Part shown: in pieces, positions 978 through 13,208 of the stretch | Numbering within the stretch: the first letter of the stretch is position 1 | How the letters are laid out: every line of letters starts with the position of its first letter | IMG/VR virus record: IMGVR_UViG_3300022934_002239 | Span: 1 to 24,041 of that record | Reading direction: 5' to 3' (one strand) | Length of the DNA: 24,041 nt | From: a virus | Made by a program: the position numbers and the translations under genes | Notes under the pieces: model-generated | What the model was told of the DNA's origin: nothing | Database searches by the model: none | Seen by the model: the letters and a program-made list of their open reading frames with translations, nothing else

Positions 978-995
978 ATGGATTGGACCTTATGA
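978..995 (+). other. Five-codon upstream ORF overlapping the polymerase start
   Basis: ATG at 978 begins a frame encoding MDWTL that ends with TGA at 993-995. That stop overlaps the polymerase ATG (992-994) as ATGA. The ATG is only about 7 bases from the predicted transcript start. It may be a leader minicistron giving translational coupling, or simply chance. No product is claimed. Confidence 0.3.
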
Positions 996-3490
996 ATTTC
1001 TACACTAATGTTACCAGATACGGCAATATGCTACTCTATCGTGGCTATGAAAATGGCAAGAAAGTCCAGAAACGTATCAAATTCAAACCAACACTATTTG
1101 TAAATACACCGCAGGGAGATTGGACTTCCCTAGATGGTAAACCATGTGCACCTATCAAGTTCGATTCTATGCGTGAGGCCAAAGAATGGCTAGATGTAAA
1201 TAAGAATACTGCTGGTAGAGAAATCTATGGTAACGATAGATACATTTCTCAATTCATCAATGAACAATTCCCTGGAACTATCGAGTTCAATCGTAACCAA
1301 ATTAATGTAACAACAATCGACATCGAGGTTGCCTCTGATGATGGATTCCCAGAACCAGATCAGGCAGAACACCCAATTATATCAATCGCCATGAAGAACA
1401 ATATTGATAATACCTATTATGTGTGGGGTCTTGGCGAATACAATACTGACCAGTCCATTATGAAAACCAATCGCGTTATCTATGAACACTGCGTATCAGA
1501 AGTAGACCTTATCAATAAATTTATCAATCATTGGTCTTTACCAAGTAACTGTCCAGATATTATTACTGGCTGGAACAGTATGTACTTTGATATACCTTAC
1601 ATTATCAATCGCACAATCAGACTACTCGGCGACGAGGCACCTAAAAGATTATCACCATGGGGTATGGTAGAACGTAGAACGGCCCGTAAACTTAACCGAG
1701 AACAAACAGTATTCAATATTCAAGGTGTTGGTCATGCTGACTATATGGAACTATTCCAAAAATATACTTACTCAGCCCAAGAGTCCTATGCTCTTAACCA
1801 CATTGCCCATATTATTCTTGGCGAGAAGAAATTATCCTATGAAGAATATGGTTCACTTCACAGCCTATACAAGAACGATCACCAAAAATTTATTGACTAT
1901 AATATCAAAGACGTTGAGTTGGTAGATCGCCTAGAAGATAAGATGGGTTTAATTACTCTCATGTTAACCATGGCATACAAAGGCGGTGTAAACTATTCCG
2001 ATACTTTCGGAGTTACTGCAATCTGGGATACTATTATCTACAGATACCTAGATGCCAAAAAGATTGCCATGCCATTTGGTGAAACTAAAATCAAGACAAA
2101 CTATCCCGGCGGTTATGTAAAAGACCCTAAAGTTGGCTTACACGAACACGTGGTATCATTCGACCTTAACTCACTATATCCATCAATTATCATGCAGTAC
2201 AATATGTCGCCAGAGACAATCGAAAATGGTAAAGTATTGCCAATTAACCTAGACAAGATACTAGAGGGTTACACATTCGACAGACAAGGTAGTGCCGTAG
2301 GTGGTAATGGTCAATGTTTCACTACTACAAAACGTGGCGTCATGCCAACCTTAGTAGATGATTTATACAGTGAACGTGTTGTAATCAAGAACGAGATGAT
2401 ACAGGCCCAGAGAGAATTGCAGAAAGTAGTTCCAGGTGATAAACAAAAACTTTACGATATAGAACGTAGAATATCCGTTGCAGAAAACCAACAGATGGCA
2501 ATTAAAATTCTACTTAACTCACTTTATGGCGCTATGGGTAACAAGTACTTCCGTTTCTTTGACCAACGTATCGCCGAGGCCATTACACTTTCTGGTCAGT
2601 TGACTATCAGATGGGCAGAAGTTGCACTTAACAGATACCTAAATAAAGTAATGAAAACAGACACCGATTATATTATCGCCATTGACACAGACTCGCTCTA
2701 TGTCAATCTAGGCCCACTGGTCGAACAGGTCAACCCTTCCAATCCAGTTGACTTCCTTGATAAAGTTGCTAGTGAAAAACTAGAACCAGTCCTCAGTAAG
2801 GCATATCAAGAACTGTTCGATCAGATGGGTGGCATCGACAATCGTATGGTTATGAAAAGAGAGGCCATTGCAGATCGTGCAATCTGGACTGCCAAGAAAA
2901 GATACATACTCAATGTCCATGATAACGAGGGTGTCCGTTACAAAGAACCTAAACTCAAAATCATGGGTATCGAGGCCATCAAATCTTCTACTCCTGCACC
3001 ATGCCGTGATGCTCTTAAAGAATTGTTCAAAGTTATTATGAAGGGTTCCGAGAAAGAAAACCAAAAGGCAATCTTACATTTCAAAGAATACTTCCAAACA
3101 TTACCAGCACATGATATTGCATTCCCACGTGGAGTAAGTAATGTAGTCGAGTATTCCAGTGCAGAGACTATTTACAAGAAGGGTACTCCAATGCATGTAC
3201 GTGCCGCTCTACTACACAATCGCCAGATCAAAGATCGTGGCCTGTCGAGAAAGTATCAACCAATCAGAAATGGCGAGAAGATCAAATTTATCTATCTCAA
3301 AACACCCAACCCAATCAAAGAAAATGTTATCGGATTTATGCAGTATCTGCCAAAAGAGTTTGAATTGGATCACTATATAGATTATGAAACACAATTTCAA
3401 AAGACATTCCTTGACCCTATTGAACCTATATTCAAGGCGATTGGATGGAGTACAGAAGAAACTTCAAGTTTAGAGGATTTTTTTGGATAA
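992..3490 (+). CDS. 43: Family B DNA polymerase (T4 gp43-like)
   Basis: This 832-aa replicative polymerase has both 3'-5' exonuclease and polymerase activity. Exonuclease motifs are DIE at residues 110-112, GWNSMYFDIPY near 193-203 and Y303/D307 in YNIKD. Polymerase motif A is DLNSLYPS with catalytic D391. Motif B is KILLNSLYG at 505-513. Motif C is DTDS with D565 and D567. A KKRY motif lies further on. Its length is close to T4 gp43 (898 aa). The tail SSLEDFFG resembles the gp43 clamp-binding peptide for gp45, which is inferred. I chose ATG 992 over the in-frame TTG at 983. The Shine-Dalgarno is weak, and a five-codon upstream ORF overlaps the start. The promoter is at 936-964. Confidence 0.97.
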   Translation: MNFYTNVTRYGNMLLYRGYENGKKVQKRIKFKPTLFVNTPQGDWTSLDGKPCAPIKFDSMREAKEWLDVNKNTAGREIYGNDRYISQFINEQFPGTIEFNRNQINVTTIDIEVASDDGFPEPDQAEHPIISIAMKNNIDNTYYVWGLGEYNTDQSIMKTNRVIYEHCVSEVDLINKFINHWSLPSNCPDIITGWNSMYFDIPYIINRTIRLLGDEAPKRLSPWGMVERRTARKLNREQTVFNIQGVGHADYMELFQKYTYSAQESYALNHIAHIILGEKKLSYEEYGSLHSLYKNDHQKFIDYNIKDVELVDRLEDKMGLITLMLTMAYKGGVNYSDTFGVTAIWDTIIYRYLDAKKIAMPFGETKIKTNYPGGYVKDPKVGLHEHVVSFDLNSLYPSIIMQYNMSPETIENGKVLPINLDKILEGYTFDRQGSAVGGNGQCFTTTKRGVMPTLVDDLYSERVVIKNEMIQAQRELQKVVPGDKQKLYDIERRISVAENQQMAIKILLNSLYGAMGNKYFRFFDQRIAEAITLSGQLTIRWAEVALNRYLNKVMKTDTDYIIAIDTDSLYVNLGPLVEQVNPSNPVDFLDKVASEKLEPVLSKAYQELFDQMGGIDNRMVMKREAIADRAIWTAKKRYILNVHDNEGVRYKEPKLKIMGIEAIKSSTPAPCRDALKELFKVIMKGSEKENQKAILHFKEYFQTLPAHDIAFPRGVSNVVEYSSAETIYKKGTPMHVRAALLHNRQIKDRGLSRKYQPIRNGEKIKFIYLKTPNPIKENVIGFMQYLPKEFELDHYIDYETQFQKTFLDPIEPIFKAIGWSTEETSSLEDFFG

Positions 3491-3494
3491 ACAC

Positions 3495-3523
3495 TTTACT
3501 TTTATGCGAAAGTGTAGTATAAT
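3495..3523 (+). promoter_or_regulatory. Sigma-70-like phage promoter with inverted repeat
   Basis: TTTACT (3495-3500), a 17-bp spacer and TATAAT (3518-3523), with TGTAG before the -10 box. The -35 region and spacer hold a perfect inverted repeat, ACACTTT (3491-3497) with AAAGTGT (3509-3515). It drives the 3550-6325 genes and starts right after the polymerase stop. Confidence 0.82.
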
Positions 3524-3549: not shown

Positions 3550-3834
3550 ATGAAACTAGTAAGAATATCATCAGGAGAAGAGGTTATTGGAGAAGTAACC
3601 GAAACCCCTTATGGAGCAACAATTAAAAAGGGATATGTATTAATCCCTGGCGGTGAAGGTAAGATCGCATTCATGCCTTTCATGCCATATACAAAGAGTT
3701 GGAAAGAAGGCCTTGAGATTAGTAAAAAGAATATTGTTTTTATTGCTGATCCAGTTGACGAGTTAGTTGAACAAGTAGAGGCAGTCAGAAACCCTAAGAA
3801 AATTATTTCACCTAAGAAGGACATTATAATCTAA
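3550..3834 (+). CDS. Small beta-rich phage protein, possibly Sm/LSM-like
   Basis: A 94-aa protein. The N-terminus MKLVRISSGEEVIGEV and the alternating short strands and glycine turns through residue 60 suggest a small beta-barrel of Sm/LSM type. The tail is charged and ends in KKDIII. Short proteins with this xxLxSGEEVIG opening are frequent hypothetical proteins in marine T4-like phages, from memory. AAGGAA precedes the ATG. It is the first gene after the 3495 promoter, and its TAA overlaps the ATG of mazG. An RNA-binding role would fit the fold but is not shown. Confidence 0.75.
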   Translation: MKLVRISSGEEVIGEVTETPYGATIKKGYVLIPGGEGKIAFMPFMPYTKSWKEGLEISKKNIVFIADPVDELVEQVEAVRNPKKIISPKKDIII

Positions 3835-4142
3835 TGAATACGAGCGTAAGAACTGGAGAATGGGTAGACAAGATTGGTCAATGGCACCATGATAGAAACC
3901 TAATTGAAGGTGCAACAGACAAAGATCAAGTATGTAAATTAATTCAAGAAGTTGGAGAATTATCAGACAATGTATGTAAAGGGAACGATGTTGCCGATGA
4001 TATTGGTGACTGTATGGTGGTACTTATTAATATCGCTATTAGAAATGGTTTAACTATTGATAGGTGTTTAGAAGTTGCGTACAATGATATTAAGGACAGA
4101 AAGGGCCGTATGGTTGACGGCATCTTCATCAAGGAGGAGTAA
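3834..4142 (+). CDS. mazG: MazG-like nucleotide pyrophosphohydrolase
   Basis: A 102-aa single-domain all-alpha NTP pyrophosphohydrolase of the MazG type. The metal-binding pattern is visible as E39 and E42 in LIQEVGELSD, followed by D56 and D59 in DVADDIGDC. Such enzymes hydrolyse (d)NTPs to monophosphates and pyrophosphate. In phages they clean up non-canonical dNTPs or alter host nucleotide signalling. The ATG overlaps the preceding stop by one base (TAATG), and its own stop overlaps the next ATG, so translation is coupled. Position directly before two putative base glycosyltransferases would fit a role in managing a modified nucleotide pool, but that is inference. Confidence 0.8.
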   Translation: MNTSVRTGEWVDKIGQWHHDRNLIEGATDKDQVCKLIQEVGELSDNVCKGNDVADDIGDCMVVLINIAIRNGLTIDRCLEVAYNDIKDRKGRMVDGIFIKEE

Positions 4143-5050
4143 TGGCAGGAAATCAACCCAAATATCCAATCTATATTATCTCTAAGGGTCGTGCAGACAC
4201 TAGACTAACAGTTAAGACACTAGAGGCGAACGGAACTCCTTATACGATTGTAGTTGAACCACAAGAGTATGAAGAGTATGCTGCAGTTATTGATCCAGCC
4301 AATATTTTGGTTACCCCATTTTCAAATCTAGGACAAGGATCAATTCCTGTCCGTAACTTTGTATGGGAACATGCTAAGAATACTGGTGCAGAAAGACACT
4401 GGATCCTAGATGATAATATTCAGCATATGTACAGACTACATAAAAATGCTAAGATCAAGATTACAGACGGGACATGCTTTAGTGCAAGTGAAGAGTTTAC
4501 TGACAGATATGAAAATGTTAAAATGTCAGGACTGAACTACAGTTACTTCCTACCAGCAACTACAAAACGTCCACCCTATTATCATAACACTAGGGTTTAT
4601 TCTTGTATCTTACTTGCAAATGATATCTATCCAGAATTTGCATGGAGAGGTAGATTCAATGAAGATACAGACCTATCACTTAGGATTATGAAGGCTGGTT
4701 ATCACACTTTCCTATTTAATAACTTTGCTTGTGGTAAGATAACTACAATGACAATGAAAGGTGGTAATACAGAAGAGCTATATAATATAAATCAGACAGG
4801 AGATCAGAACAATAGAAAGGGTAATGAAAACTTTGATAACAGATATGAGTTTGCAGAATCACTAAGAAAGCAACATCCAGACTGTGTTAAAGTTACATGG
4901 AAATGGGGCAGGTGGCATCACCACATTGACTACTCCATATTCCAGAAAGAAAAACCCACTCTTAAGGCAGACCTAAATATACCTAAAGTGGTAGATAATA
5001 AGGGATTAAAATTAGTTAGATTAAAACAGGAGGCAATAAATGGCAGTTAA
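4142..5050 (+). CDS. TAGT-like glycosyltransferase, copy 1
   Basis: A 302-aa GT-A-type glycosyltransferase. The N-terminus PIYIISKGRADT (9-20) followed by VVEPQEYEEY (37-46) is the pattern I associate with the TET/JBP-associated glycosyltransferase (TAGT) family. That family is proposed to attach sugars to hydroxylated DNA bases in phages. A DD pair within HWILDDN (residues 90-91) is the likely metal/nucleotide-sugar site. A second acidic cluster, EDTD (174-177), lies in a WRGRFNEDTDLSLR segment, followed by MKGGN. A paralogue lies at 5399. The neighbours are MazG, UDP-glucose dehydrogenase and an epimerase. The substrate is unknown, and protein or capsular targets remain possible. Confidence 0.78.
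   Translation: MAGNQPKYPIYIISKGRADTRLTVKTLEANGTPYTIVVEPQEYEEYAAVIDPANILVTPFSNLGQGSIPVRNFVWEHAKNTGAERHWILDDNIQHMYRLHKNAKIKITDGTCFSASEEFTDRYENVKMSGLNYSYFLPATTKRPPYYHNTRVYSCILLANDIYPEFAWRGRFNEDTDLSLRIMKAGYHTFLFNNFACGKITTMTMKGGNTEELYNINQTGDQNNRKGNENFDNRYEFAESLRKQHPDCVKVTWKWGRWHHHIDYSIFQKEKPTLKADLNIPKVVDNKGLKLVRLKQEAINGS
4248..4279 (+). repeat. Near-identical 32-bp repeat, copy 1 (glycosyltransferase paralogues)
   Basis: This stretch encodes the VVEPQEYEEY motif and matches 5625-5656 at 31 of 32 bases, while the surrounding coding DNA has diverged. Conserved codons as well as residues suggest recent duplication, gene conversion or constraint at this site. Confidence 0.7.
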
Positions 5051-5399
5051 AAATAATTCTACAAAAGATAGGCAAGCCAATTACGAAGGCGAAAGTCTAT
5101 TTGTTTTATCGGGTGCAGAAGAGGCAGAAACTCCACATCAGTGGGACTCAATGCCAGAATTCGATCAAAAACAAAATGAGGCATGGAAAATGCTAAAAGT
5201 CAGATTCCGTAATGAAGCAGACTTAATGGCATTTGCAGAATTGGTTGGGCAAACAGTAACACCAAAGACAAAAGGTATTTGGTATCCAGCAGCAGATAAA
5301 TCTAAGAACTCGTTACTTAGATGGATGCATGAAGATCAGATAGAAGGCAATCCAGATGTTGATGAAGTTCTTACTGATGATGCAATAAAGGTTGAATAA
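5040..5399 (+). CDS. Conserved phage protein between the two glycosyltransferases
   Basis: A 119-aa protein. Residues 33-41 (HQWDSMPEF) and 52-71 (LKVRFRNEADLMAFAELVGQ) followed by TKGIWYP (77-83) look like a compact alpha/beta domain. I recall similar WDSMPEF / IWYP modules in phage proteins, either alone or linked to other domains, but I cannot name a function. The start is supported by AGGAGG at 5028-5033. It overlaps the first glycosyltransferase by 11 bases, and its TAA overlaps the next ATG. Being translationally coupled between the two paralogues suggests it works with them, for example as an accessory or target-recognition subunit. That is inference. Confidence 0.75.
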   Translation: MAVKNNSTKDRQANYEGESLFVLSGAEEAETPHQWDSMPEFDQKQNEAWKMLKVRFRNEADLMAFAELVGQTVTPKTKGIWYPAADKSKNSLLRWMHEDQIEGNPDVDEVLTDDAIKVE

Positions 5400-6325
5400 T
5401 GATTAATATAAAGAACTATCTTGAAGAGCAACAAGACCTTTTTGCTCTAATGGATGGAACAGAACAAGAGTCCGATTTTAATTTAGTTGGTTTAGTAGAA
5501 GATTTAATTGCAGACTACAGCAATCAAACTTCTCAAGTATATACAGTTTATATACCATCTAAAGGCAGGGCAGATACTCCTAATACCTATGATATTTGCA
5601 ATGAAGAAAATATCCCATGTAAGGTTGTAGTTGAACCACAAGAGTATGAAGAATATCACCAAACCATTCCGTCAGAAGATTTACTTACCTTAGATAAGAA
5701 TGATCAAGGTGTTCAATATGCTAGATCGTGGATTAAAAACTATTCAACAAGTATAGGCGAAGAATATCATTGGCAGTTTGATGATGATATGAAATACTTT
5801 ACAATGAGAATTGATGATAAAAATCAAAGAGTCAATCTAGTGCATTCTAAATCTATTATCGAACAAGTTGCAACTCTTTTTGAAAACTTTGCAGTTGGCG
5901 GTATGACTTCAAATGCATTTGCTTTCTCTAAACCAAATCCAGTAAAACTCAATCAGTTGGGTTATGGCTGTACATTTATTAATAATAATTTCAAACAAGA
6001 ATGGAGAGACAAGACAGTAGAAGATTGGGATTATACATTACGTGCTCTAGAGGCAGGAATGTGTACCATGGCATTCTCTCACATTAACTTTCAAACGCCA
6101 TCTTCTGGCACAAACAAAGGTGGTAACAATCTTACCGACTGGGCCACTATTGAGAAAAGAAAAGAATTTTATGATTACTTCGCCTCACTCTGGCCTAAAA
6201 ACTTTAGGGTAGTAGAGTTGGTAGAAGGATCAAGTAAAGGCTACAAATTAGAACATAAAAGACGTTTCTTTAACGATTATAAAAATTTAAAATTAAAGTT
6301 AAAAACCTCTTTACAAACGGATTAA
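5399..6325 (+). CDS. TAGT-like glycosyltransferase, copy 2
   Basis: A 308-aa paralogue of the 4142 gene. It has VYIPSKGRADT (50-60), VVVEPQEYEEY, FDDD (127-130) as the likely metal site, EDWD (208-211) and NKGGNN near 240. Unlike copy 1 it carries an extra acidic N-terminal extension of about 45 residues beginning MINIKNYLEEQQDL. The start is set by TAATG coupling to the preceding gene. The last codons (LKTSLQTD) are encoded by the same bases as the -35 box of the next promoter. Two diverged copies suggest two different acceptors or donor sugars. Enzyme class is likely; substrate is unknown. Confidence 0.78.
   Translation: MINIKNYLEEQQDLFALMDGTEQESDFNLVGLVEDLIADYSNQTSQVYTVYIPSKGRADTPNTYDICNEENIPCKVVVEPQEYEEYHQTIPSEDLLTLDKNDQGVQYARSWIKNYSTSIGEEYHWQFDDDMKYFTMRIDDKNQRVNLVHSKSIIEQVATLFENFAVGGMTSNAFAFSKPNPVKLNQLGYGCTFINNNFKQEWRDKTVEDWDYTLRALEAGMCTMAFSHINFQTPSSGTNKGGNNLTDWATIEKRKEFYDYFASLWPKNFRVVELVEGSSKGYKLEHKRRFFNDYKNLKLKLKTSLQTD
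5625..5656 (+). repeat. Near-identical 32-bp repeat, copy 2
   Basis: Partner of 4248-4279, differing by one silent base within the final Glu codon of the motif. It lies at the equivalent position in the second glycosyltransferase. Confidence 0.7.
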
Positions 6326-6338
6326 ATTGTAGTATAAT
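6310..6338 (+). promoter_or_regulatory. Sigma-70-like phage promoter inside the end of the previous gene
   Basis: TTTACA (6310-6315), a 17-bp spacer and TATAAT (6333-6338) preceded by TTGTAG. The -35 box lies inside the last codons of the second glycosyltransferase. The predicted start near 6345 is only about 4 bases before the ATG at 6349. Confidence 0.85.
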
Positions 6339-6348
6339 ATACAATATT

Positions 6349-7275
6349 ATGGATAAAGTTTCTGGTACATTATTTGAGTCACTCTTTGATGTCAAGACAG
6401 ACAAGAGAATAGACTTACCATCATTTAAAGACTTTGAAGAAATACTATATCGCTTATCCGAGAAACCAAGAAAAGATAAAAAGTCAGCAGAGTTAATGTC
6501 TCCTGCTTTTTATTCTGTCGGCAGTACAAGGAAAAACGATAATGTAGAAGGCTGGGGTGGTTGGTGTGCCATAGATGTAGATGATTGCACTGAGGACTTG
6601 AATAAATTCCTAGAGAAAAAGTGCAAAGATTATTATTATATCTGTTACTCTACTGCTTCATCCACTAAGGACTTGCCAAAGTTTAGACTTGTCTTTCCCC
6701 TAACAGAGTTTGTAACAAAAGACAAGATTAAACATTTCTGGTTTGCGCTCAACAAGGAACTTGGAGAAATGGGCGATATACAGACCAAAGATTTATCGAG
6801 AATGTATTATATACCCGGCAAGTATGCTAACGCATATAACTTCATCTTTACAAAAGAAGGTAAGGCAATATCCCCTGTGGATATTATGTCAAGACACGAG
6901 TATATAGAAAGAAGTGGTAATACATTCTTCGATAAATTACCTAAGAGTATGCAAGAGGCTATGTTGGCCCATATGAAATCATCACTAACAAATACTAAAG
7001 TTACATGGACTGGCTATAAAGATTGTCCATTCTTTCCAAAACAATTAGAACAAGAATATAGATCAATTACTGGAACTGGTTGGTATCATAAAATGTATCA
7101 GATTATGGTCGCACTGGCTGGTAATGCAGTGAAGAACAAATATCCAATTACGGCAAAAGAAATCGCGTATCTCTGCAGAGAACTAGATTTAGATACTGGT
7201 AATTGGTATAAAAAGAGGCCGTTAGATAAAGAGGCTGAAAGGGCCTTAGAATTTGTGCATAGGAATAGTTTATGA
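6349..7275 (+). CDS. Putative archaeo-eukaryotic primase-like protein
   Basis: A 308-aa protein. Residues 70-160 carry features of AEP/prim-pol and related replication-protein domains: WCAIDVDDC with DVD at 76-78, YYYICYSTASSTKD (95-108), KFRLVFPL (111-118) and DLSRMYYIPG (148-157). In AEP enzymes a DxD pair binds metal and a later Arg/His strand contacts the nucleotide. The C-terminal half is helical and may resemble a primase C-terminal helical domain. No DnaG/TOPRIM gp61-type primase is visible here, so this may supply primers for gp41, but gp61 may lie elsewhere. No Shine-Dalgarno precedes the ATG and the transcript would be nearly leaderless. Its end overlaps the next gene as ATGA. Family assignment is tentative. 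Confidence 0.6.
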   Translation: MDKVSGTLFESLFDVKTDKRIDLPSFKDFEEILYRLSEKPRKDKKSAELMSPAFYSVGSTRKNDNVEGWGGWCAIDVDDCTEDLNKFLEKKCKDYYYICYSTASSTKDLPKFRLVFPLTEFVTKDKIKHFWFALNKELGEMGDIQTKDLSRMYYIPGKYANAYNFIFTKEGKAISPVDIMSRHEYIERSGNTFFDKLPKSMQEAMLAHMKSSLTNTKVTWTGYKDCPFFPKQLEQEYRSITGTGWYHKMYQIMVALAGNAVKNKYPITAKEIAYLCRELDLDTGNWYKKRPLDKEAERALEFVHRNSL

Positions 7276-8456
7276 GTAAAAAAATTACAGTAGTAGGAGC
7301 AGGTTATGTCGGTATGGCAAATGCCACAATGCTTGCAAAATACAATGACGTTAAAATTTTAGAGCTGAGTGATGATAAGGTAGATGATATTAACCATGGT
7401 GTCTCTCCTATATTTGATCCAGATATTTCAAATGAATTGCCATTAATGGGAATTATTGCAACAAGATCTGCTGATGAGGCATATTCGGAAGGGCCAGATA
7501 TAGTTATGATCGCAACACCAACAGACTATGATCCAGATACGGATTCATTTGATACTAAGTCTGTAGAATATGTTATCGGCGATGTGGTTAGAAGAAACTT
7601 TAATCCTATCATTATTATTAAGTCCACTATTCCAGTAGGCTTTGTTGATTCTATGAGAGAGAAGTTCCAGTATGAAAACATTATATTCTCGCCAGAATTT
7701 TTAAGAGAGGGTAGGGCATTAAGAGATGCTCTCAGGCCAACAAGAATTGTAGTTGGTGATAGAAGTGATGAGGCTACAGAATTTGCAAATGTAATAAAAG
7801 AGGCTATTATCCCACAGTCAATTGAACCACCTGTAATCTATACAGGAACAAGAGAAGCAGAAGCGATTAAGTTATTTGCAAACGGCTATCTTGCTATGAG
7901 AGTTACCTTTTTTAACGAGCTGGATATGTATGCAGAAAGATATGGATTAAGTCCTCGTGATATTATTGAAGGTGTTGGCTATGATGAACGTATTGGAAGA
8001 CACTATAATAACCCTTCATTTGGTTACGGCGGTTACTGTTTTCCAAAAGATACCAAACAACTAAAGGCTCTTTATACTAAAGGTAATATACCTAATGATA
8101 TTATAAGTTCAATCGTTGATTCTAATGAAACAAGAATGGACTGGATAACAAGGCGTATTCTATATAAGAAGCCTAAGACAGTAGGAATCTATAGGCTGAT
8201 TATGAAATCTGGTTCAGATAACTTTAGAAGTTCTGCAATACAAGGTGTTATAGAACGTCTCAAAAAGAGAACAGAAGTTATTATTTACGAGCCCGAATTT
8301 CCACCAGAGATTGAAAACCTTATGGATTGTGAGATCGAGCATTTCCTAAATAGTTTTAAACGAAGATCAGACGTTATCGTTACCAATAGAATGGATGGCG
8401 AACTTTTAGATGTTTATGATAAAGTATATACGCGAGATGTTTTCAATAATAATTAA
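7272..8456 (+). CDS. ugd: UDP-glucose 6-dehydrogenase family protein
   Basis: A 394-aa protein of full family length. The N-terminal Rossmann motif is VVGAGYVGMANA (8-19). IATPTDYD and KSTIPVGF are typical cofactor-domain strands. SPEFLREGRAL is the conserved substrate segment, and GYGGYCFPKDTKQL carries the catalytic cysteine. The reaction oxidises UDP-glucose to UDP-glucuronate using two NAD+. Related UDP-hexose dehydrogenases (UDP-ManNAc or UDP-GlcNAc type) cannot be excluded from sequence alone. The start overlaps the previous gene as ATGA. An epimerase follows after a separate promoter. With two putative glycosyltransferases just upstream, it could supply an acidic sugar for transfer to DNA or another acceptor. 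Confidence 0.9.
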   Translation: MSKKITVVGAGYVGMANATMLAKYNDVKILELSDDKVDDINHGVSPIFDPDISNELPLMGIIATRSADEAYSEGPDIVMIATPTDYDPDTDSFDTKSVEYVIGDVVRRNFNPIIIIKSTIPVGFVDSMREKFQYENIIFSPEFLREGRALRDALRPTRIVVGDRSDEATEFANVIKEAIIPQSIEPPVIYTGTREAEAIKLFANGYLAMRVTFFNELDMYAERYGLSPRDIIEGVGYDERIGRHYNNPSFGYGGYCFPKDTKQLKALYTKGNIPNDIISSIVDSNETRMDWITRRILYKKPKTVGIYRLIMKSGSDNFRSSAIQGVIERLKKRTEVIIYEPEFPPEIENLMDCEIEHFLNSFKRRSDVIVTNRMDGELLDVYDKVYTRDVFNNN

Positions 8457-8465
8457 CAAAAACAC

Positions 8466-8494
8466 TTTACATTTATTAAAAAGTGTAGTATAAT
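8466..8494 (+). promoter_or_regulatory. Sigma-70-like phage promoter with inverted repeat
   Basis: TTTACA (8466-8471), a 17-bp spacer and TATAAT (8489-8494) with TGTAG before it. As at 3495, ACACTTT (8462-8468) and AAAGTGT (8480-8486) form a perfect inverted repeat with the same 11-base gap. It drives the epimerase-to-cytidylyltransferase operon. Confidence 0.85.
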
Positions 8495-8517
8495 AGTACC
8501 ATTAAAAGGTAAAGAAC

Positions 8518-9369
8518 ATGAGTAAAATATTAGTTACAGGTGGAGAAGGATTTATCGGATCCAACCTTATCAAGAGGCTCCTCAAACAAGGCCATGAAGT
8601 AGTATCAATGGATAATGGCCATTCAAATAAAATCACAAATAGACACAAAGGCTGTACATATTATTTCGGAGATGCATTTGATCTCTTTAGTACACTTCAA
8701 CACACTAATCCTTGCTTTGATTATATCTATCACTTCGGAGAATATGCAAGAGTAGAACAATCATTTGATGATTACGATACAGTTATTGATTATAACTTAA
8801 TGCAGTTTCCAGAAGTCCTAAGATTTGCATCATATCAAAATGCCAAACTTATCTACTCTGGTTCATCTACTAAGTTTGCAGATAATACATATTCTGCTAG
8901 TCCATATGCATATACCAAAGCGCAAAATACAGAACTTCTTAAAAATTATGCAAACTGGTTTGGACTAGACCACGTGATAGTATATTTCTATAATGCATAT
9001 GGAGACAATGAGATTGATAGAGGTAAATATGCCACAGTGGTTGGTAAGTTCCTAAGAATGGTAAAAGAAGGCAAGAAAGAATTACCTATGACTGGAGATG
9101 GCTCACAATTAAGAAACTTTACTCACGTTGATGATATAGTAGATGGCCTTTTGCTTGCTGCCGAACATGGAGATGGCGATAATTATGGTATAGGTGCAGA
9201 TGAACAACATTCAATACGTGATCTAATTAATTACCTAGGTGCTGAACCTAACTTTAAACCAGATAAACCAGGCAATAGAAAATCAGGTAAATTAGTTACA
9301 CAGAAAATAAAAGACTTAGGTTGGAGTCCTAAGAGAGATTTAAAAACTTATATTAAGGAAAGGCTATGA
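8518..9369 (+). CDS. NAD-dependent sugar-nucleotide epimerase/dehydratase
   Basis: A 283-aa extended short-chain dehydrogenase/reductase. The NAD-binding motif is TGGEGFIG (7-14). YHFGEYARV, YSGSST and the catalytic Y130-x3-K134 in SPYAYTKAQ follow. VYFYNAYG and RNFTHVDDIVDGLLLA are typical of UDP-glucose/UDP-glucuronate 4-epimerase relatives. At 283 aa it is shorter than many GalE proteins (about 340). An AAGG site precedes the ATG. Acting after the dehydrogenase, it could convert UDP-glucuronate to UDP-galacturonate or another sugar, but the substrate cannot be read from the sequence. It is the first gene of the operon from the 8466 promoter and overlaps the next ORF as ATGA. Confidence 0.88.
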   Translation: MSKILVTGGEGFIGSNLIKRLLKQGHEVVSMDNGHSNKITNRHKGCTYYFGDAFDLFSTLQHTNPCFDYIYHFGEYARVEQSFDDYDTVIDYNLMQFPEVLRFASYQNAKLIYSGSSTKFADNTYSASPYAYTKAQNTELLKNYANWFGLDHVIVYFYNAYGDNEIDRGKYATVVGKFLRMVKEGKKELPMTGDGSQLRNFTHVDDIVDGLLLAAEHGDGDNYGIGADEQHSIRDLINYLGAEPNFKPDKPGNRKSGKLVTQKIKDLGWSPKRDLKTYIKERL

Positions 9370-9545
9370 GTATTGAAAAAATCGTAGAAAAATTTAAAGT
9401 TATAGACCCTAAACTTAGAACCTACTATATTGGAAAGTGGGCCGAAGAAAAAGGTATTGACTCAGACCTTGCAATGGAAATGGCAGGTTATGTAAAAGAT
9501 GGTTATATAGGTGCAGGTGCTTGGAATTGGAGGTATCAACAATGA
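9366..9545 (+). CDS. Small hypothetical protein (59 aa)
   Basis: A 59-codon frame with ATGA overlap at both ends: its ATG overlaps the epimerase stop, and its TGA overlaps the ATG of the SleB-like gene. The product is mixed helical and polar (MSIEKIVEKFKVIDPKLRT at the start) with an aromatic/Gly-rich tail, GYIGAGAWNWRYQQ. It has no membrane segment or signal peptide. No family is recognised. The two couplings make it a real gene in my view, and it probably belongs functionally with the following hydrolase or the epimerase. Confidence 0.7.
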   Translation: MSIEKIVEKFKVIDPKLRTYYIGKWAEEKGIDSDLAMEMAGYVKDGYIGAGAWNWRYQQ

Positions 9546-10048
9546 AAAATATAATGAACGTTGCAATATTACTTGCACTAGTATCAATAGGCTTTGTCGG
9601 CCAAATTAATGCAATAAATGTAACAGATGAACAAGCAGAGGCAAGATTTTGTCTAGCACAGAACATATATTTTGAATCAGCCAATCAACCATATGCAGGT
9701 AGAGTGGCAGTCGCAAACGTTGTTATGAATAGGGTAGAGGATTTACAGTTCCCTGATACAGTTTGCGGTGTAATATATCAAGCGAAACTAAGAGAAAACT
9801 GGAAAGGCAATATGGTTCCTGTAAGAAATCAATGTCAGTTCAGTTGGTATTGTGATGGTAAGTCGGATGAACCCACGGATTCAGTTACGTGGATGGAATC
9901 TTTACGTATCGCACATTTAGTATTGACAGGCACAGTGCCTGACTTAACGGAGGGAGCTCTGTATTATCATGCAGATTTTGTATCACCATATTGGGCTCCA
10001 TATTTAACCAAGGTTGTTACTATAGACAACCACATTTTTTATAAGTAG
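9542..10048 (+). CDS. Secreted SleB-like cell wall hydrolase
   Basis: A 168-aa protein. Residues 1-24 form a signal peptide: MK, a hydrophobic core, and likely cleavage after QINA. The SleB/Hydrolase_2 domain follows, with ARFCLAQNIYFESANQ (catalytic Glu near 45), GRVAVANVVMNRV, CQFSWYCDG and YYHADFVSPYWA. SleB enzymes are lytic transglycosylases that cut peptidoglycan glycan strands. Export to the periplasm through the host Sec system would let it act without a holin. I chose ATG 9542 over the upstream TTG at 9521 because GGAGG at 9529-9533 is well spaced and the signal peptide then starts correctly. It overlaps the 59-aa gene. Likely role: endolysin or envelope remodelling. Confidence 0.88.
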   Translation: MKNIMNVAILLALVSIGFVGQINAINVTDEQAEARFCLAQNIYFESANQPYAGRVAVANVVMNRVEDLQFPDTVCGVIYQAKLRENWKGNMVPVRNQCQFSWYCDGKSDEPTDSVTWMESLRIAHLVLTGTVPDLTEGALYYHADFVSPYWAPYLTKVVTIDNHIFYK

Positions 10049-10758: not shown

Positions 10759-11427
10759 ATGGCTTATCCTAAAGCATACATGGAAACACTTGGATCATAC
10801 GTCTATGGATATTATCCTGAAGGACTGAGTGGTCAAGCAGAATATATTGGTAAAGGGGTAGACACACGTTGTCTAGCTCATGTAAAAGATAAAAACCAAG
10901 ACCCGGCAAATCTTTATATCTTAGGTAGAAACCTAGAGAAGTATGCCAAATCAACACCAGCAGAAGAGATTGCATCTTTTGCCGCAGAGGCAGCAATCAT
11001 TGCGATTACTAATCCTAAACTGAATAGTGTTTCGGGTAGATATGGAGACCTATGGAAACCAGAAAGACTTGACGACTTATATCAAGAATGGAAGAAACAA
11101 CAAATCAATCCAGTAAAAGAATCAATGAGATTTTATAATGATCACCCAGAAATCCAAGAGCATGTTAAAGGCATGTGGGCAACGGGTAACTCATTTGTAT
11201 TTACTTCGCCAACTTCAAATGGAATTGAATATATACTAAACGTGACTCCAGAAGTAGATGGGTTTGTTCCAGTTGTTAAAGTTAAATTCTCTAGGGATAA
11301 GAGAGAAGAGCTAAGAGAAAAGTGGATTAAAGATAATGATTCAGAATATAATCTAAGTGCAGATGGAGAAATGGTAAACGTAACAGGATTAACAGTGGAG
11401 AAAGCCATAGAGCTTTGGATGTCATGA
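10759..11427 (+). CDS. GIY-YIG endonuclease with C-terminal extension
   Basis: A 222-aa protein. The N-terminal GIY-YIG nuclease domain spans about residues 12-100: YVYGY (14-18), YIGKG (29-33), then R37, H41, E77 and N89 at the expected spacing for Arg, His, catalytic Glu and Asn. This version resembles the LEM-3-like branch more than classic group I intron enzymes. The C-terminal part (about 110-222) is unrecognised, with a beta-rich segment and a charged helical region. It may bind DNA. GGAG lies upstream. The stop overlaps the next gene as ATGA. It may be a free-standing homing or host-DNA nuclease; no interrupted gene is visible nearby. Confidence 0.82.
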   Translation: MAYPKAYMETLGSYVYGYYPEGLSGQAEYIGKGVDTRCLAHVKDKNQDPANLYILGRNLEKYAKSTPAEEIASFAAEAAIIAITNPKLNSVSGRYGDLWKPERLDDLYQEWKKQQINPVKESMRFYNDHPEIQEHVKGMWATGNSFVFTSPTSNGIEYILNVTPEVDGFVPVVKVKFSRDKREELREKWIKDNDSEYNLSADGEMVNVTGLTVEKAIELWMS

Positions 11428-11846
11428 GAGTAGGAATTACAGCATCAACATTTGACTTGCTACATGCAGGTCATTGTGCTATGTTAAGAGAAGCAAAAAC
11501 ACAATGTGATTATCTTATTTGTGCACTACAAAATGACCCATCATTAGATAGACCAGATAAGAATAAACCAATTCAAAATATAGTAGAAAGACAAGCGCAA
11601 CTAGCCGCAATTAAATATGTGGATGAAATCCTAGTATATAATACCGAACTAGAGTTGCTCGATATTCTAGCCATGTATGACATTGATGTCAAAATTATGG
11701 GTGTTGAATATAGAGACAAAGACTTTACAGGTAAGGATATGTGCCAAAAAAGAGGCATTGAATTCTACTTTAATAAGCGAGATCATCGCTTTTCAACAAC
11801 AAACTTACGCGAAAGAATTGAACAAAACACTTTACAATCTGAGTGA
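11424..11846 (+). CDS. Cytidylyltransferase-like nucleotidyltransferase
   Basis: A 140-aa protein of the small HIGH-type nucleotidyltransferase family. GITASTFDLLHAGHCAML (residues 4-21) contains the nucleotide-binding HxGH. IKYVDEI and the C-terminal FSTTNLRERI (RxSTTxLR type) match glycerol-3-phosphate cytidylyltransferase (TagD) and the adenylyltransferase domain of HldE. It would activate a phosphorylated small molecule with CTP or ATP. I chose ATG 11424, coupled by ATGA overlap, over the upstream TTG. The last codons overlap the next promoter's -35 box. Location in the sugar-nucleotide operon suggests synthesis of an activated sugar or polyol, but the substrate is unknown. Confidence 0.83.
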   Translation: MRVGITASTFDLLHAGHCAMLREAKTQCDYLICALQNDPSLDRPDKNKPIQNIVERQAQLAAIKYVDEILVYNTELELLDILAMYDIDVKIMGVEYRDKDFTGKDMCQKRGIEFYFNKRDHRFSTTNLRERIEQNTLQSE

Positions 11847-11886: not shown

Positions 11887-12153
11887 ATGCCGTCAATAGA
11901 TTTAAGACCTAGGAAAAGACACCCTAAGGATAAAAGACCAGCAAAACCAATGCCGTTTGACGTAGCCCTAAGAAAATTTAGAAAGGCTGTTGAACGCGCT
12001 GGTATTTTGCAAGATGTTCGTAGAAAGGAGTTCTATGAAAAACCTACTGCGAAAAGAAAACGTAAAAAGGCCGAAGCCGTCGCAAGATGGAGAAAGAAAG
12101 AAAGGGCCATTGAAATGCAATTAGGTACTGGTAGTACCAGGAGAAAAAGATAA
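11887..12153 (+). CDS. rpsU: Ribosomal protein bS21 homologue
   Basis: An 88-aa, very basic protein. Residues 22-60 ([18 protein letters not shown], then [20 protein letters not shown]) match bacterial 30S protein S21 closely. Compared with E. coli S21 (71 aa) it has about 15 extra Arg/Lys/Pro-rich residues near the N-terminus and a GTGSTRRKR tail. bS21 sits near the 3' end of 16S rRNA and helps mRNA binding and initiation. Phage-encoded bS21 is known from some pelagiphages and very large phages and is thought to enter host ribosomes. AGGAG precedes the ATG, it is first after a promoter, and its TAA overlaps the uvsX ATG. Confidence 0.93.
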
Positions 12154-13208
12154 TGTCAGTAATGGATAAATTAAAAAAGAATTCTAAGATCAAGACAACC
12201 AATGTATTGTCTAAATCAGTATTCTTTACAGAAAAAGATATGGTACCAACTGAAGTACCAATGGTAAACGTAGCTCTATCTGGAGATACGGAAGGTGGTC
12301 TTACATCAGGACTAACAGTTCTTGCAGGGCCTAGTAAACACTTTAAAACTTCTTTTGCCCTACTTATGGCAGGTGCGTATATGAAGGAACATGAAGATTC
12401 AGTATTATTATTTTATGATTCAGAGTTTGGTTCACCACAATCATACTTCGAAGCATTTGGTATTGATACTGATAGAGTATTGCATACTCCAATTACAGAT
12501 GTGGAACAACTCAAGTTTGACCTAGTATCACAATTAGATAATATAGAAAGAGGTGATAAGGTAGTTATTGTAATTGATTCTATCGGTAACCTAGCATCTA
12601 AGAAAGAGCTAGAAGATGCTCTTAGTGAAAAATCAGTTGCAGATATGTCCAGGGCAAAAGCACTGAAAGGATTATTCAGAATGGTTACTCCTTATTTAAC
12701 CATGAAGAATGTTCCACTTCTCGCAGTTAACCATACTTACCAAGAGATTGGTCTATTCCCTAAAGCTATCGTATCAGGTGGTACAGGAATTTACTACTCA
12801 GCAGATAACATCTGGATTCTTGGCCGTAGACAAAATAAGACAGGTTCAGATGTAACAGGTTATGACTTTATTATCAATGTAGAGAAGTCAAGATTTGTAA
12901 AAGAGAAGTCAAAGATTCCAGTATCAGTTTCATGGGAAGGTGGTATTGAAACTTATTCAGGCTTACTAGATATTGCCTTGGCAGGTGGATATGTGGTTAA
13001 ACCTACAGTCGGTTGGTATTCAAGAGTAGATCAAGCTACTGGCGAAGTATTACAGCCAAAAGTAAGACAGAAAGATACACTTACTAAAGAATTTTGGGAT
13101 CCAATCTTTAATGAAACAGACTTCAAAAAGTTTATTAAATCTTACTATCAGATAGGACATAAACCTTTGTTAGAAATTGATTTAGAAACCACTTTACAAG
13201 AGGAGTAA
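12153..13208 (+). CDS. uvsX: UvsX recombinase (RecA/Rad51 family)
   Basis: A 351-aa strand-exchange ATPase, somewhat shorter than T4 UvsX (391). Walker A is GPSKHFKTS (59-67). The catalytic Glu is E91 in YDSEFG. Walker B is KVVIVIDSIGN with D142. NHTYQEIG and GGTGIYYSADNIW follow as the L2-side and core strands. It forms filaments on single-stranded DNA and drives recombination-dependent replication and repair. The acidic tail TTLQEE is encoded by the -35 box of an internal promoter. It starts by TAATG coupling to bS21. A UvsY mediator is not seen in this window. Confidence 0.95.
   Translation: MSVMDKLKKNSKIKTTNVLSKSVFFTEKDMVPTEVPMVNVALSGDTEGGLTSGLTVLAGPSKHFKTSFALLMAGAYMKEHEDSVLLFYDSEFGSPQSYFEAFGIDTDRVLHTPITDVEQLKFDLVSQLDNIERGDKVVIVIDSIGNLASKKELEDALSEKSVADMSRAKALKGLFRMVTPYLTMKNVPLLAVNHTYQEIGLFPKAIVSGGTGIYYSADNIWILGRRQNKTGSDVTGYDFIINVEKSRFVKEKSKIPVSVSWEGGIETYSGLLDIALAGGYVVKPTVGWYSRVDQATGEVLQPKVRQKDTLTKEFWDPIFNETDFKKFIKSYYQIGHKPLLEIDLETTLQEE

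Follow-up and report, generated by a model that had tools for sequence, protein, structure and literature searches.

The viral contig IMGVR_UViG_3300022934_002239 (24,041 bp; the entire record was analysed and is referred to here as the window) carries a cassette of plus-strand genes that is predicted to glycosylate DNA. The open reading frames (ORFs) are located at 4142-5050 (302 aa, glycosyltransferase TAGT1), 5040-5399 (119 aa, the TAGT-partner protein p119, with its core domain at about 5130-5324), 5399-6325 (308 aa, TAGT2, a second and distant TAGT paralogue), 7272-8456 (394 aa, UDP-glucose 6-dehydrogenase, UGD) and 8518-9369 (283 aa, a sugar-nucleotide epimerase of the extended short-chain dehydrogenase/reductase (SDR) type, EPI). 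A sequence-only reading had described two TAGT-like enzymes flanking a translationally coupled small protein, with a UDP-glucose dehydrogenase and an epimerase following. The coupling was borne out: TAGT1 and p119 overlap by 11 nt, the p119 stop and the TAGT2 start have 1 nt in common (5399), and AGGAGG-like ribosome sites precede TAGT1 and p119. UGD and EPI are present in the order described, but a primase-like gene (6349-7275, plus strand; 308 aa; phrog_9765, E=4e-46), outside the proposed pathway, lies between TAGT2 and UGD and had been overlooked, and hence the 'module' consists of three transcription units rather than a single run. The first unit begins with a MazG-like nucleotide pyrophosphohydrolase gene (3834-4142, plus strand; phrog_1992, E=8e-38), whose stop shares 1 nt (4142) with the TAGT1 start; this gene stays adjacent to TAGT1 in the relatives L003-L011, and its product may have a role in the nucleotide pool. 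Since the same genes recur in the same order in L003 (a 41.9-kb contig with cassette genes at 100% identity) and, at lower identity, in L005, L006 and L007, the arrangement is no assembly accident. From its genes for Hsp20, a family-B DNA polymerase, UvsX, a DnaB-type helicase, ThyX and a ligase, the window virus is probably a T4-like marine myophage.

Each of the three units is preceded on the plus strand by a promoter-like site: TTTACT-N17-TATAAT, with the core TGTAGTATAAT, at 3495-3523 for the MazG-TAGT1-p119-TAGT2 unit, and TTTACA-N17-TATAAT at 6310-6338 for the primase-like/UGD unit and at 8466-8494 for the epimerase gene. The window has eight exact copies of the core, each of them on the coding (plus) strand (positions 954, 3513, 6328, 8484, 11849, 15752, 15900 and 18722), when only 1.2 would be expected even allowing one mismatch, and six of the eight end a TTTAC(A/T)-N17-TATAAT site. 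In the window the core stands ahead of the polymerase, the TAGT unit, the primase/UGD unit, EPI and the uvsX unit. On the window-lineage contig G003 the exact core lies ahead of the polymerase, clamp-like, ribonucleotide-reductase, uvsX, EPI and primase/UGD units. The structural blocks of this contig have no exact copy, and none was found before the TAGT unit. A promoter shared with the polymerase and uvsX, and not present at the structural blocks, argues that the cassette would be transcribed alongside the replication genes and not with those of virion assembly.

Judged by the curated cut-off of the Pfam TAGT profile (PF20691; 27.5 bits), both glycosyltransferases are members of the TAGT family, as had been proposed: TAGT1 scored 158 bits (E=3.2e-46) and TAGT2 92 bits (E=5.5e-26). 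TAGT1 carries the motifs HWILDDN (DxD-type metal) and NEDTD (acidic catalytic), which are mostly invariant among relatives, and the TAGT2 motifs HWQFDDDM and VEDWD match the same two types. A GT-A fold is supported by a structure model of the p119-TAGT fusion relative L134, rather than of the window proteins, in which the catalytic core reached a pLDDT of about 90; its best PDB matches were majastridin (3e-5) and heparosan synthase (1e-4), at low TM-scores (0.2-0.5). The two window proteins fall in distant, separately well-supported parts of the tree. They are thus paralogues, as had been read, but not recent duplicates, and TAGT2 is optional, being missing from L012-L015 and L031. Elsewhere the slot beside TAGT or after p119 is filled by a methyltransferase, GT4, GT32, sulfotransferase or radical-SAM gene. 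p119-TAGT1 therefore looks like a fixed core with exchangeable finishing enzymes, which would support the action of TAGT1 and TAGT2 in series; two sugars are added in series by T6 and RB69/NP (PMC13216743, PMC13390438). The genes inserted beside p119/TAGT at L044:2155-2781, L045:3909-4556, L161:7046-8005, L103:3084-3872 and L107:2661-3833 are of sulfotransferase, GT32, radical-SAM/SPASM, methyltransferase-like and GT4 types. A further GT-A-looking protein family without a Pfam match was observed near cassettes (L057:12729-13592, phrog_1574; L432:10345-11202).

The sandwiched protein, to which the sequence-only reading had already given weight, is a near-obligate partner of TAGT. Its domain of ~65 aa follows the pattern W..MPEF..VRFR.E.D...FA.L.GQ..T.KTK.IWYP and had zero matches in Pfam, PHROGs, NCBIfam and PDB sequences. 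A TAGT-seeded search found it in 118 of 128 TAGT loci; 124 of 159 TAGT genes had p119 on their own strand no more than 60 nt away, in roughly equal shares upstream and downstream, and 8 were fused to it. When p119 itself was used as the seed in an independent search, TAGT was located within 5 kb in 78/79 loci, and the lone exception starts at a contig end. These locus sets include related contigs and hence non-independent events, with order, spacing and fusions varying between groups. Among cultured phages, POP12, Aeh1, 65, avDM6, PTm1, Vibrio 1.076.O and 1.124.O carry p119 fused ahead of TAGT, Kuja has two such fusions, and in henriette 12B8 p119 appears split from TAGT. It is absent from T6 and from the TET-linked TAGT of P12024L. 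In some relatives a ParB-like protein adjoining TAGT has p119 as its C-terminal part, and in L139 (6105-7652) the ParB-like domain, p119 and TAGT are all fused; in the window p119 the ParB N-terminal domain was not found, which sets it outside the ParB family. We propose that p119 may have a docking or specificity role toward TAGT. Its own structure model was weak (pLDDT 74, pTM 0.42), and a structure search of the PDB returned no match. A coat-protein reading, from a p119 hit to Pfam Phage_Coat_A (E=0.0046), was dropped, the hit being below the cut-off with nothing else in its support. POP12 has another p119-like domain (E=4e-11) in an ORF of 59 aa that follows its fusion gene (L002:11143-11322), and the ParB-like/p119 fusions of L139, L027, L032 and L059 directly precede genes read by eye as the small and large terminase subunits.

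To judge from its match to the Klebsiella enzyme 3PHL (E=1e-129), its full length and the retained catalytic Cys motif GYGGYCFPKD, the 7272 gene product is a true UDP-glucose 6-dehydrogenase. EPI, of a GEY(A/S)RV subfamily with the catalytic motif SST...YAYTK, is an extended SDR (PF01370, E=1e-39); its NAD motif and Ser...YxxxK fit a 4-epimerase and its closest solved structures are GalE-like, although it lies below every NCBIfam equivalog cut-off. The catalytic Glu of UXS and 4,6-dehydratases, which we take to be placed two residues past the Ser/Thr (TSE/TDE), is missing from the window (SST) and from aligned subfamily members (SST/SSS); TSEVYG was seen only in L034-L036, which carry a UXS-like gene. 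The window SDR thus appears to fit a 4-epimerase but neither a dehydratase nor a UXS decarboxylase, and a xylose or arabinose donor made through a UXS-type decarboxylase was rejected for the window. An acidic sugar donor is plausible, given an intact UGD and an epimerase without the Glu on which decarboxylases and dehydratases depend; glucuronate, galacturonate and galactose donors are all possible. A cytidylyltransferase-like nucleotidyltransferase (RfaE-II/GPCT-like; 11415-11846, plus strand) is a possible further component of sugar activation, and in L127 such a gene is contiguous with TAGT, p119, UGD and EPI. In L059 the order is UGD-ParB/p119-TAGT-TAGT-EPI. Short UGD homologues (260-308 aa) without the C-terminal UDP-binding domain were as common next to TAGT as full-length ones (L022, L057, L059, L127, L314 and L431).

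The cassette lies between polB (983-3490) and uvsX (12153-13208), the same interval that gene 42 and ggt occupy in T6. According to work on RB69 and the T-evens, this is where their genes for base modification and sugar donors reside (PMC6024577, PMC8056088). In the close kin L405 and L407-L410 (polB 67% and uvsX 84% identical to the window) it holds a primase-like gene, EPI and, further on, a hydroxymethylase-like gene (PF00303), a dCMP deaminase, a TAGT (PF20691, 4e-14) and a C5-methylase homologue; the contigs that extend as far as uvsX (L405 and L408-L410) have an SDR and UGD before it as well. The ThyA-like protein of these kin has the motif RSND..GYRND, in which Asp takes the place of the thymidylate synthase Asn, presumably a dCMP hydroxymethylase trait. 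In L429-L434 the window EPI subfamily stands beside a homologue of the T4 DNA alpha-glucosyltransferase (alpha-GT; PF11440, E=1e-77), with a hydroxymethylase and a deaminase, and overall this subfamily was found beside three different types of DNA-glycosyltransferase. The 4.1-kb contig L148 (225-3982) carries Tet_JBP, ADDT, a P-loop kinase, p119 and TAGT compactly on one strand, and in L371 a fused p119-TAGT lies beside Tet_JBP and a second TAGT. Given the polymerase-uvsX position, the gene content of relatives and the replication-unit promoters, DNA is quite probably the target of the cassette. As separate observations, a C5-cytosine-methylase homologue (PF00145) in L429-L434, L405 and L407-L410 always sits beside hydroxymethylase-like, dCMP deaminase and DNA-glycosyltransferase genes, and in the marine T4-like relative L285 (2742-4972) Tet_JBP adjoins TAGT between sliding-clamp-like and clamp-loader-like genes.

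The best precedent within the family is the T6 beta-glucosyl-HMC-alpha-glucosyltransferase, a TAGT-family enzyme that acts on DNA (PMC13216743, PMC2993671). The T2/T6 arrangement (ggt/ba-gt with gene 42) resembles the window in Pfam family, in the polymerase-uvsX interval and in having the second-sugar enzyme next to the first; however, the T6 protein is very distant from the window TAGTs (E=1e-8 to PF20691) and lacks both p119 and a match to the p119-class profile. T6 uses host UDP-glucose and has a hydroxymethylase, whereas the window has UGD, an epimerase and p119, and a hydroxymethylase was not found in it. The TET/JBP-linked TAGT of Nonlabens phage P12024L (Iyer-type) shares the family and the modification context; unlike it, the window class has p119 and no adjoining TET, p119 and TET/JBP occurring together only in L148 and L371. 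The Aeh1, 65, POP12, PTm1, Kuja and Vibrio 1.124.O proteins belong to the same class as the window, but in them p119 is fused in front of TAGT, whereas in the window it is a separate gene after TAGT1 and TAGT2, UGD and EPI are added. An Aeh1 glucosyltransferase gene has been listed as presumably DNA-modifying (PMC8056088). In the arabinosylation cluster of RB69/NP, too, the polymerase-uvsX interval holds phage genes for a sugar donor next to ones for DNA modification, and two transfers in series have been proposed there; the cluster differs in its GT-B transferase (RB69), its donor genes and the presence of a hydroxylase gene (PMC6024577, PMC13390438). SP-15, a precedent for an acidic sugar on a phage base, puts glucuronolactone and glucose on dihydroxypentyluracil and shares with the window a UDP-glucose dehydrogenase and two glycosyltransferases; in this Bacillus phage the sugar is linked through phosphate and the gene set is another (PMC5977210).

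Taken together, we favour, with a probability of roughly 0.6, a DNA-hypermodification cassette that consists of a donor made by UGD and EPI, TAGT1 with p119, and TAGT2; the DNA acceptor, the identity of the sugar, the role of p119 and the order of transfer are those that we infer. The cassette genes would be expressed together with the replication genes. UGD would convert UDP-glucose to UDP-glucuronate, and the SDR epimerase would act at C4 of a UDP-sugar. The resulting donor, UDP-galacturonate or some other UDP-sugar besides UDP-glucose, is perhaps unavailable from the host. With p119 docking or steering it, TAGT1 would put the first sugar on a base in phage DNA, TAGT2 would add a second sugar or serve another base or linkage, and the sugar coat might shield the genome from host nucleases.

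Several observations weigh against this proposal. In eight loci UGD and a different epimerase subfamily fill the polymerase-uvsX interval with no TAGT, and only 38 of 79 UGD-seeded loci carry TAGT. Such loci could mean that UGD, EPI and the nucleotidyltransferase alter a surface polysaccharide, for example to block superinfection, and are unrelated to the TAGTs, which would use host UDP-glucose on DNA or act otherwise; some of them have phosphomannomutase-like and cupin-like genes, and cyanophage sugar clusters have been interpreted in this way (PMC7824862). This is quite unlikely for the window, as the epimerase of the TAGT-less UGD loci is only ~25% identical to the window EPI, whose own subfamily, used as seed, had TAGT nearby in 51/80 loci and alpha-GT in 6/80, many of the remaining loci ending early; furthermore, unrelated phages have UGD and EPI on either side of p119/TAGT or directly next to it (contiguous in L127; also L059). 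An early count of 56/56 for co-occurrence of the EPI subfamily with TAGT came from biased sampling and is superseded by the independent scan. UGD plus EPI as a TAGT-specific signature was rejected, since UGD with the other epimerase subfamily is seen without TAGT.

The acceptor raises a second difficulty. Hydroxymethylase, TET/JBP, alpha-GT, ADDT and modification kinase were not found in the window-lineage contigs G001-G003 (40 to 120.8 kb, none demonstrated complete), nor in G006 (170 kb), G008 (151 kb) or two Vibrio phages of 47 kb that carry p119-TAGT; PF00303 and profile searches of G001-G003 for a dCMP hydroxymethylase of ThyA fold were empty. In a redundant cross-table that covers locus flanks rather than whole genomes, a hydroxymethylase occurred near TAGT only where p119 is absent (6 loci, including T6) and in 0/333 p119 loci, and TET/JBP occurred in two loci with p119-TAGT and in two with a TAGT lacking p119. 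Aeh1 and 65 carry p119-TAGT and are without genes 42 and 56, and relatives without that gene network are thought to be for the most part unmodified (PMC2993671). The fusion gene of Vibrio phage 1.076.O has head genes as its neighbours, and no nucleoside data on the p119 class were found in the accessible literature. The DNA-glycosylation role proposed in the sequence-only reading is thus favoured by position and relatives, but the acceptor-making step, which it had supposed to lie elsewhere if the target is DNA, has no ThyA-type hydroxymethylase or TET/JBP to account for it in the window lineage, as far as these incomplete genomes were searched, or in most large p119-TAGT genomes; relatives that have such enzymes do exist, L405 and L407-L410 with a hydroxymethylase-like gene and L148 and L371 with TET/JBP. 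As no acceptor-making enzyme is seen in most of the p119 genomes searched, either the acceptor is made by an unrecognised route or it is something other than a hydroxylated base. A tentative and rather doubtful extension is that p119-TAGT enzymes form a class of phage DNA glycosyltransferases in their own right, which can do without a dedicated hydroxymethylase or TET/JBP and acts on ordinary DNA or on a base activated by an undescribed enzyme, attaching here a uronic acid or another UGD/EPI-made sugar, which TAGT2 would extend.

The same absence of a base-hydroxylating enzyme from most p119-TAGT genomes searched would also be explained if the glycosyltransferases modify a protein (of the virion, of replication, or p119 itself), with p119 as acceptor or adaptor and UGD/EPI supplying the donor. 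When five diverse genomes were compared for a common acceptor-making enzyme, p119-TAGT and a generic helicase-like protein were all that they shared; the 1.076.O gene is flanked by portal and head genes, and ParB/p119-TAGT often precedes the putative terminase genes. Nevertheless, we consider a protein target unlikely: L148 clusters p119-TAGT with TET/JBP, ADDT and a kinase, the window cassette is in the polymerase-uvsX interval under replication promoters, the T6 member of the family acts on DNA (PMC13216743), and the epimerase subfamily adjoins a DNA alpha-glucosyltransferase. It is highly improbable that the cassette is degenerate or silent and kept by drift; TAGT2 is missing or UGD truncated in some relatives, but ORFs and motifs are intact in diverse relatives, including at 92-94% identity in separate contigs, and spacing and promoters are conserved.

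Elsewhere in the window, a gene for a SleB-like cell-wall hydrolase with an apparent signal sequence (9521-10048) is conserved immediately after EPI. An Rfam scan found a single tRNA and nothing else.

The system is likely a form of TAGT-based DNA glycosylation that comes with a partner domain and whose donor pathway the phage itself encodes. Of 753 phage genomes bearing glycosyltransferases (GTs), 288 have 'solitary' TAGTs, without alpha-GT or beta-GT, whose function is undefined (PMC13216743). The p119 domain provides a marker for an apparently large TAGT class (>300 redundant loci here) and a clear partner for co-expression, and cultured p119-TAGT members are available in Aeh1, 65, POP12, PTm1, Kuja, Vibrio 1.076.O and 1.124.O. 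The link of EPI and UGD to three kinds of DNA-glycosyltransferase predicts that phage DNA would carry sugars besides glucose and arabinose, and such non-glucose sugars bear on the escape from restriction, CRISPR and type IV nucleases, and on new base-modifying enzymes.

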